A stretch of 33,634 nucleotides of DNA, taken from NCBI GenBank assembly GCA_015492295.1, contig WGFI01000113.1:1-33634 (forward strand). Direction: 5' to 3'. Every line of letters starts with the position of its first letter. Position 1 is the stretch's first letter. Both the position numbers and the translations under genes were made by a program. The notes beneath the pieces were generated by a model. The model had not been told where the DNA came from. It did no database searches and saw nothing but the letters and a program-made list of their open reading frames with translations. Shown here piece by piece: positions 14,889 through 16,466 of the stretch. Source of the DNA: Caldifarciminota bacterium (GTDB taxonomy: Bacteria > Hydrothermota > Hydrothermia > LBFQ01).

Positions 14889-15326
14889 TTACTTTATAGG
14901 TATCTCCTTAGAGCGGGATTTCTCCGACTTAGGTATCTCTATATGGAGGACACCATTTTCAAGTTTCGCAGATATTTTATCGGCCTCAATGTTCGTGGGA
15001 AGCTGAATAGCCCTCTTGAATGAGCCGAATACTATCTCTCTCCTATGATACTGGGCATCCTTCTCCTCCTTTTCCTCCTTCCTCTCACCGGATATGGTAA
15101 GTACATTATCGGAAACTTCTATCTTCAAATCCTCCTTCTTTACACCGGGAACATCCACATCAAGGATGTACTTATCCGTCAGCTCTTTGATCTGGATGGC
15201 GGGAGTCCAAGGGAACTCTCTATCTATCACCCTATCGGATAGGAAACTATCAAAAAGCTTCTCCATCTCCCTTCTCAAATTCTCAAGTTCCCTAAAAGGA
15301 TCCCATCTTACTATTTCCCTTGCCAT
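14889..15326 (-). CDS. Small heat-shock protein, Hsp20/alpha-crystallin family
   Basis: VDVPGVKKEDLKIEVSDNVLTISGERK, LENGVLHIEIPKSE; RBS aggaggtga. Confidence 0.96.
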   Translation of the reverse strand: MAREIVRWDPFRELENLRREMEKLFDSFLSDRVIDREFPWTPAIQIKELTDKYILDVDVPGVKKEDLKIEVSDNVLTISGERKEEKEEKDAQYHRREIVFGSFKRAIQLPTNIEADKISAKLENGVLHIEIPKSEKSRSKEIPIK

Positions 15327-15367
15327 GACTTCACCTCCTTTTTAACTTATGTTAACCAATCCATTCA

Positions 15368-15396
15368 ATTATGTCTGAAATCGACCCCCTTGTCAA
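15368..15396 (-). promoter_or_regulatory. Sigma-A-type promoter of hsp20 (TTGACA-17-CATAAT) with an imperfect TTGAC-N6-GTCGA dyad
   Basis: Minus strand TTGACA at 15396-15391, 17 nt spacer, CATAAT at 15373-15368. Confidence 0.75.
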
Positions 15397-15600
15397 GTAA
15401 GGTCATCTTACTTTATATCACGCGGGTTGTTAGTTGAGGTATAGAGAATGGCAAAGAGAGTAAAGGCTTACTTATACCCGCTGCGTTTCCATGCCCAAAT
15501 CAGTATTTTATTCGTGTTTCTCAACAACTACCAATGCACCGCATCCTAACTTTACCTCGGACAGCTTACCCCTAAGGTGGAGGGAGAGGAATCTTTGATT

Positions 15601-16167
15601 TTATTTAACAATTACCTTGCGAACCTTACCTAACGCCCTTACAAAATATATCCCAGGCTTCAACTTAATCGTCTTTTCACCCTTAACCTGATACCTCCCG
15701 ATCCTACGACCTGATACATCCCATACTTCTACACTTACAGGCTTATCCTTGGAAAGCACCTTAACCTTCAATCCCCCTATAGTGGATGAAATCGTTAGAG
15801 GTTCATTTGCCTTTTGAAGAAAGCTTTTAGTTAAACTGTTGGGTGAAGGAGTCTCTACACTTCCGCAGCTGGGATCTTCATCCCTATAAACGCATACAAC
15901 AAAACACCCTACACCTGAATAGCACTTCATATGCCAATAGCTTATTTTACAAATATCGGATGCTCCTCCTCCATTACAGGGACCGCACCTTGGACAGCTT
16001 CCCCCACCACCTTGTTCCGAATGAGTAAAGAAATCCTTCTCCGCCCTTGGAATGCTAAAAGGTTTTGTGAGTTTTCTCCGCGTTTCCAGCGCTTTATCCC
16101 AAAGTTGAAGAATCCCCTTTTCCTGAGGTGTTAAATAAGGATTTGCGCTTAGCATAAGTATTATCAT
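15601..16167 (-). CDS. Small exported protein with an 8-cysteine, glycine-rich segment and C-terminal sorting domain
   Basis: Start trimmed to MIILMLSANPYLTPQEKG (RBS ggaggt); GGGGSCPRCGPCNGGGASDICKISYWHMKCYSGVGCFVVCVYRDEDPSC; C-terminus VSVEVWDVSGRRIGRYQVKGEKTIKLKPGIYFVRALGKVRKVIVK. Confidence 0.75.
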   Translation of the reverse strand: MIILMLSANPYLTPQEKGILQLWDKALETRRKLTKPFSIPRAEKDFFTHSEQGGGGSCPRCGPCNGGGASDICKISYWHMKCYSGVGCFVVCVYRDEDPSCGSVETPSPNSLTKSFLQKANEPLTISSTIGGLKVKVLSKDKPVSVEVWDVSGRRIGRYQVKGEKTIKLKPGIYFVRALGKVRKVIVK

Positions 16168-16197
16168 CTCTTTACCTCCTTTCCCTCTCTCCTTCAA

Positions 16198-16232
16198 GTC
16201 CTTTGGGTGAAGGGGGTTAAGCCCCAAAGGAC
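16198..16232 (-). other. Stable hairpin in the 5' UTR of the 8-Cys gene
   Basis: GTCCTTTGGG (16198-16207) and CCCAAAGGAC (16223-16232), perfect 10-bp stem, 15-nt loop. Confidence 0.7.
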
Positions 16233-16283
16233 CCCTCTCCCTCCACCCTGTCAGACTCACCTGTTATTCTGTGCAACCATTTA

Positions 16284-16312
16284 ATTATGTGTGAAATTGA
16301 CCCCCTTGTCAA
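16284..16312 (-). promoter_or_regulatory. Sigma-A-type promoter of the 8-Cys gene (TTGACA-17-CATAAT) with a perfect TTGAC-N6-GTCAA dyad
   Basis: Minus strand TTGACA at 16312-16307, 17 nt spacer, CATAAT at 16289-16284; near-duplicate of the hsp20 promoter. Confidence 0.75.
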
Positions 16313-16466
16313 ATGAGATCATCCTCTTTAACGATGGATTTATTTGACCAAGCATCATCAGCTTTTATAATCCCCTTATTTGGCTAACTTACTCGGCTTC
16401 TTAACGGTCTTTCCGTATCCAACGTTTTGGGACAAATACATCTTTCGGTGTTAGAATATCTAACTC

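Follow-up and report, generated by a model that had tools for sequence, protein, structure and literature searches.

Results

hsp20 and a gene for a Cys-rich secreted protein have the same promoter

The window, the whole 33,634-nucleotide (nt) stretch of DNA that we analyzed, belongs to a genome of 1.96 Mb in 121 contigs (G000). Its minus strand carries hsp20 (14889..15326; 145 aa; Pfam HSP20, E value of 3.5e-29) and a gene for a secreted protein with eight cysteines (the 8-Cys gene; 15601..16167; 188 aa from ATG). A copy of the same promoter precedes each gene, on the same strand, at 15361..15410 for hsp20 and 16277..16323 for the 8-Cys gene. When the window was compared with itself, 15361-15407 matched 16277-16323 over 47 nt, ungapped, with 87% identity; the 21-nt core, TTGACAAGGGGGTCRATTTCA, occurs twice in the window and in none of 100 dinucleotide shuffles. 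Both copies read TTGACA-N17-CATAAT on the minus strand (15396-15368 and 16312-16284), with the -35 and -10 hexamers at 15396-15391 and 15373-15368 for hsp20 and at 16312-16307 and 16289-16284 for the 8-Cys gene. Each copy also contains a TTGAC-N6-GTCAA dyad, free of mismatches in the 8-Cys copy (16297-16312) and with a single mismatch in the hsp20 copy (15381-15396). A preliminary description of this DNA had reported the near-identical stretches, their hexamers, the state of the dyad at each site, and a promoter common to the two genes, and our analysis bore out all of these. At the 8-Cys gene, the similarity runs on downstream into a leader that is common to 16S rRNA and is absent at hsp20.

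The 8-Cys protein has a hydrophobic N terminus and a C-terminal tail like that of type A substrates of the type IX secretion system (T9SS). The tail scored 22 bits against TIGR04183 (cutoff, 23), and three relatives exceeded the cutoff. The N terminus and tail are conserved; the Cys-rich middle of the window copy is unlike that of its paralogues. A Pfam scan assigned no family to the Cys-rich proteins, and the only matches of the Cys-rich domain to solved structures had E values of at least 0.19. Since the Cys genes have dN/dS ratios of 0.15 to 0.55 (0.39 for the window copy versus its paralogue on contig C48), we consider the reading frame to be coding.

Copies of the promoter precede rRNA, tmRNA, chaperone, and secreted-protein genes

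G000 contains about 13 copies of the promoter element (13 by BLAST of a longer element and 7 with the exact core GACCCCCTTGTCAA); the genomes compared look like draft metagenome assemblies, and several copies lie at contig ends. Outside the window, copies precede groESL and a second 8-Cys gene (C57), the 16S rRNA gene and a third 8-Cys gene (C48), the 5S rRNA gene (C61), and the tmRNA gene (C16). Others stand ahead of two short secreted-protein genes truncated by contig ends (C48 and C54), another secreted-protein gene (C45), a dnaG-led gene run with a sigma-70-like gene next (C33), and lanthipeptide-like precursor peptides adjoining a LanKC gene (C84). The identities of the 16S, 5S, and tmRNA genes were confirmed with Rfam. 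Of 15 exact TTGACA-N18-ATAAT sites in G000, 10 are due to the element. Among unrelated genes, the common part spans the region from -35 to about +1. A search of 59 relatives yielded no similar copy, with one weak partial match outside the core.

In relatives from the sister genus, TTGACA-N17-CATTATT precedes the 16S, 23S, groES, and hsp20 genes alike, with a different spacer each time. Because the relatives have the same -35/-10 class at rRNA and chaperone genes, this class of strong promoter is likely to be old; because each of their promoters has its own spacer, the common spacer in G000 points to a recent copying event. We rejected a heat-shock sigma factor recognizing the -10 sequence CATTATT because the 16S and 23S promoters of the relatives have that same -10. 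In G000, the same promoter stands ahead of rRNA genes (16S and 5S) and of the tmRNA gene, as is expected of a strong promoter of the rRNA type, which argues for a high-output housekeeping promoter. Judged by its sequence and its targets, we conclude that the repeated element is the general high-output, rRNA-type sigma-70 promoter of G000 and does not mark a stress regulon. High transcription would be expected from a promoter of this type.

Near-identical promoter sequences are found ahead of unrelated genes within a genome in cases of promoter propagation, also described as putative mobile promoters, and G000 shows the same pattern. Here, in contrast to those cases, the source is identifiable as the rRNA-type promoter, most targets are high-output genes, and a gene family carries copies along with it. 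Promoter-like matches near contigs C94 and C60 represent another promoter, TTGACAGGATCATTTTCCACCTTATAAT, which lies near CRISPR repeats (Rfam CRISPR-DR2) on C94 (L049:58-288) and recurs at the start of C60. Class III lanthipeptide clusters with a RamC-like LanKC and small MKKVL.LQK precursors also have promoters of the strong class to which the repeated element belongs (L047, on G000 C84; L259; and L264).

The preliminary description had judged that the 8-Cys gene probably belongs to one stress regulon with hsp20, under a single repressor that occludes the -35 of both promoters by binding to the TTGAC-N6-GTCAA dyad. The near-identity of the spacer at the two window sites and the presence of the element at groESL are consistent with this proposal, as is the retention of GTCAA in two divergent copies (C48_4852 and C57_13137) in which the middle of the spacer has changed. 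However, the 16S, 5S, and tmRNA genes carry the same element, and for this reason we rejected the proposal as the main explanation and, with it, the membership of the 8-Cys gene in such a regulon. Of the 13 copies in G000, 8 have an intact dyad, those of hsp20 and 16S have it broken in the same way, C45 has it in a shifted position, and C84 and C33 lack it; the dyad is thus imperfect at hsp20 itself, and the hsp20 and groES promoters of relatives have none, which argues against its being an operator. The shared spacer, from which a single regulator had been deduced, is not common to the corresponding promoters of relatives, and recent copying explains its identity in G000. Other copies had been expected at groEL and dnaK: a copy does drive groESL, but dnaK of G000 has no such promoter. 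The copies sit at promoters, as had been foreseen, but mostly away from stress genes. We regard a single repressor acting on the dyad as highly improbable. Growth-rate or stringent control is another reading: a single global regulator, acting on chaperonin genes and on genes related to the ribosome, would bind the conserved block from -35 to +1, dyad included, and the Cys-rich proteins would be growth linked. In its favor are the targets (the 16S, 5S, tmRNA, and groESL genes and the dnaG-led run with its sigma-70-like gene) and the end of conservation among unrelated genes at about +1. Against this, the corresponding promoters of relatives have only TTGACA-N17-CATTATT in common and no shared spacer, and copying again explains the identity of the spacer in G000. 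We consider this type of control doubtful.

A candidate heat-shock operator downstream of the hsp20 promoter

Between the -10 and the Shine-Dalgarno sequence of hsp20 lies another dyad, GTTAACATAAGTTAA (15342-15356, minus strand), a candidate family-wide heat-shock operator. Sites of this type precede hsp20 and groESL across the family. The 13-mer GTTAACATAAGTT has 16 exact occurrences in eight family genomes, 12 of which are at hsp20 or groESL; 2 resemble chromosomal dif sites, and the other 2 are ahead of an orthologous gene of unknown function. With one mismatch and in inverted orientation, it is found ahead of dnaK in five relatives. The 8-Cys, rRNA, and tmRNA promoters lack it, and upstream of dnaK in G000 there is neither a GTTAACATAAGTT site nor the repeated promoter. 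On this sequence distribution, GTTAACATAAGTTAA is a better candidate for a heat-shock operator than the TTGAC-N6-GTCAA dyad, and heat-shock control of hsp20 and groESL is most likely exerted through this separate operator just downstream of the promoter.

Like the CIRCE/HrcA and HAIR/HspR systems, GTTAACATAAGTTAA is a short dyad adjoining chaperone promoters; it matches neither consensus. Reading the sequences upstream of groESL, hsp20, and dnaK by eye, we saw no CIRCE element (TTAGCACTC-N9-GAGTGCTAA), in agreement with the preliminary description, which had held that the dyad over the -35 is not CIRCE. The same reading of chaperone-gene upstream sequences gave no HAIR element (CTTGAGT-N7-ACTCAAG). 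No HrcA match exceeded the cutoff in the 8 family genomes, whereas 7 of 14 control genomes exceeded it. The regulator acting at GTTAACATAAGTTAA is probably not HrcA, and the site points to an HrcA-independent heat-shock operator. A dif-like site resembling GCACATAAnGnAnCTTATGTTAAC occurs once per genome, in several cases downstream of a LemA-like gene (L084:1501-1523, on G000 C19; L083; L102; L103; L105; and L108); its XerD-type arm has GTTAACATAAG in common with the candidate operator.

The 8-Cys message is flanked by complementary arms, one of them shared with the 16S leader

Over ~97 nt, the promoter and leader of the 8-Cys gene can be aligned with their 16S counterparts; the alignment stops at GGTGGAGGGAGAG, the sequence that serves 16S rRNA as the 5′ arm of its leader-trailer pair. 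The 5′ arm of the 8-Cys transcript, AGGGTGGAGGGAGAGGGGTC (16230..16249, minus strand), whose first part is common to the 16S rRNA leader, is complemented by a 3′ arm, GATTCCTCTCCCTCCACCTT (15574..15593, minus strand), located 8 nt past the stop codon. Together, the arms make an uninterrupted 20-bp helix, with a score reached by none of 200 shuffles. Closing helices of 12 to 21 bp were found in seven Cys-gene units from five genomes. Those of the other two Cys genes in G000 are 21 and 17 bp long, and helices made from different arm sequences occur in G003 (12 bp), G004 (12 bp), G006 (15 bp), and G007 (14 bp); taken singly, the G003 and G004 helices are weak, with scores reached by 4 and 1 of 200 shuffles, respectively. 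The arms of a gene paired with each other scored 32 to 50, most swaps of arms between genomes scored less than 30, and 76 control genes scored at most 30. The exceptions among the swaps were G003/G007 and G004/G006, which have related leaders and scored 30 to 37; because the arms are purine or pyrimidine rich, some cross-pairing is expected. In G000, the 16S trailer is a poorer match to the 5′ arms of the Cys genes than are their own 3′ arms. A degraded copy in G005 has a 12-bp stem, and the message for a lanthipeptide precursor in G006 has a 17-bp stem; two lanthipeptide precursor units of G005, taken singly, showed no clear stem.

In bacterial rRNA, complementary leader and trailer sequences flank the RNA and pair as a long helix (PMC10250234). 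The Cys units likewise have long complementary arms that flank an RNA, maintained with compensatory change and adjoining an rRNA-type promoter; in G000, the 5′ arm is the 16S arm itself. However, the Cys stem does not enclose mature rRNA: it holds a protein-coding message whose reading frame is under purifying selection, together with a pseudoknot and a Shine-Dalgarno sequence. In a limited search of the literature, we found no case of a protein-coding message inside a leader-trailer helix. We rejected a mobile element with terminal inverted repeats (15576-15596 and 16227-16247), since these repeats proved to be the two arms, in leader and trailer, of the 8-Cys transcript. The interval of ~800 to 900 nt between copies had suggested integron-like cassettes, which were also rejected; single-gene units explain the spacing.

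The leader contains a predicted pseudoknot

Inside the stem, the leader motif TCCTTTGGGGCTTAACCCCCTTCACCCAAAGGA (16199..16231, minus strand) is predicted to fold as an H-type pseudoknot. Positions 16223-16231 and 16199-16207 would pair as stem 1, and stem 2 has its 5′ strand at 16209-16216; the window copy retains only a degraded 3′ strand of this second stem. The pattern GGGGCTTAACCCCN1-2TCACCC has 15 occurrences in 7 of the 8 family genomes; 32 genomes from elsewhere in the class and a reversed-pattern control gave none. Fourteen leaders fit a 9-bp stem 1 with compensatory changes at three positions (covariation score reached by 25 of 20,000 permutations) and have a 7- to 8-bp stem 2 adjoining the Shine-Dalgarno sequence. 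The same pseudoknot leader precedes lanthipeptide precursors in G005 and G006. It resembles the H-type pseudoknot riboswitches of the preQ1-II and SAM-II classes in being compact and directly ahead of the Shine-Dalgarno sequence, but it lies below every Rfam gathering score, and the Rfam search gave chance matches only (for preQ1-II, 15.7 bits versus 47).

Cys genes adjoin rRNA genes

A Cys gene is directly upstream of the 23S rRNA gene in G003, G006, and G007 and of the 16S rRNA gene in G004 and G000 (C48); the 23S gene of G000 was not located, and adjacency to rRNA in that genome refers to 16S. The leader of the G004 Cys gene includes a diverged second copy of the 16S promoter, the 16S leader, and the first ~46 nt of mature 16S rRNA. 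By its sequence, we take this 16S segment to be a fossil that records descent from an rRNA unit. The hsp20, groESL, 16S, and tmRNA promoters of G000 each have a Cys gene or the decayed remnant of one immediately upstream, and C45 also carries one; upstream of 5S is the end of a gene whose tail is similar. Frameshifted Cys-rich copies are present at C45 of G000 (L241 and L046) and in G005 (C2; L261). A decayed copy is present at G000 C16 (L021), and the frameshifted and decayed copies of G000 stand upstream of intact promoters. Given these frameshifted and decayed copies, the family appears to undergo fast birth and death.

Several other arrangements were seen. In G002 and G005, a Cys-rich relative without an rRNA-like leader is oriented divergently from dnaK, which adds another chaperone gene to the neighbors of the family (L113:3490-3951). 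The rRNA genes are apparently unlinked: in G000, the 16S gene is followed by a protein gene, and 5S is elsewhere, with its own promoter (L017, L020, and L211). Just upstream of the 23S and 16S promoters of the sister genus is a second promoter-like sequence, CCCTTATAATAnCCGG, which abuts the 3′ arm of the Cys gene (L221, L222, L220, L223, and L211); this suggests tandem rRNA promoters in that genus. A 16S gene of G007 (C46; L207) has a deviant start and deviant flanks and is probably assembly contamination.

Discussion

The sharing of the promoter, the homology to the 16S leader, the compensated pairing of the arms, the adjacency to rRNA genes, and the covariation in the pseudoknot stem are all features of the sequences themselves. 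On these grounds, we think it probable that both sites in the window are copies of an rRNA-type promoter, that heat-shock control uses a separate operator, and that the 8-Cys gene sits in an rRNA-like shell of transcription and folding, closed by its arms, that would give high output of a secreted protein. The repeated promoter would supply strength at hsp20 and groESL. The 8-Cys copy is longer and would provide, besides the promoter, the 16S 5′ leader as far as the point where the leader-trailer arm ends. The proposed cistron would consist of the rRNA promoter, the 5′ arm, the pseudoknot leader with its Shine-Dalgarno sequence, the reading frame, and the complementary 3′ arm. After this arm usually comes the promoter of the next gene downstream; in five genomes of the family, that gene codes for rRNA. 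The 8-Cys transcript would then be made at rRNA-like rates, and pairing of its arms would form a closed loop, which might be trimmed by RNase III or some other nuclease. The loop would protect the message, leading to very high output of the small Cys-rich protein. We infer that the 8-Cys mRNA is made, and probably processed or stabilized, like pre-rRNA; the strength of its transcription, like the identity of any regulator, is likewise deduced from sequence.

A simpler history would be passive spread, in which units of promoter, Cys gene, and promoter multiply by recombination between promoters and the arms and leader are neutral leftovers of rRNA duplication. The Cys genes and remnants upstream of so many G000 promoters, the gene end with a similar tail upstream of 5S, and the frameshifted copies at C45 and in G005 are what such a process would leave behind. 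The closing stem might indeed be a mere relic of recombination with rRNA genes, and the degraded stem 2 in the window's own copy is a point against a functional shell. However, neutral leftovers would not be expected to keep pairing in seven units despite sequence change or, in G000, to fit their own 5′ arms better than the 16S trailer does. The reading frames are under purifying selection, and lanthipeptide precursor messages have the same leader, one of them with a 17-bp stem. We consider passive spread unlikely and favor the rRNA-like shell.

More broadly, and more tentatively, this lineage may have adapted its 16S unit as a cassette for expressing secreted proteins and peptides, with an rRNA promoter, a closing leader-trailer helix, and a lineage-specific pseudoknot that sets translation; it is not far from an even chance that the mRNA is, in this sense, a pseudo-rRNA. 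The copies in G000 show how copying within a single genome can bring a strong promoter to genes for rRNA, tmRNA, chaperones, and secreted proteins. Leader-trailer helices are familiar from rRNA precursors, and here a protein gene keeps one through compensatory change. If the rRNA-like shell is real, it would be a natural test of the roles of the helix apart from ribosome assembly, in processing, in stability, and in transcription by the rRNA elongation complex, and it would serve as an existing template for designing bacterial messages that are stable and strongly expressed.
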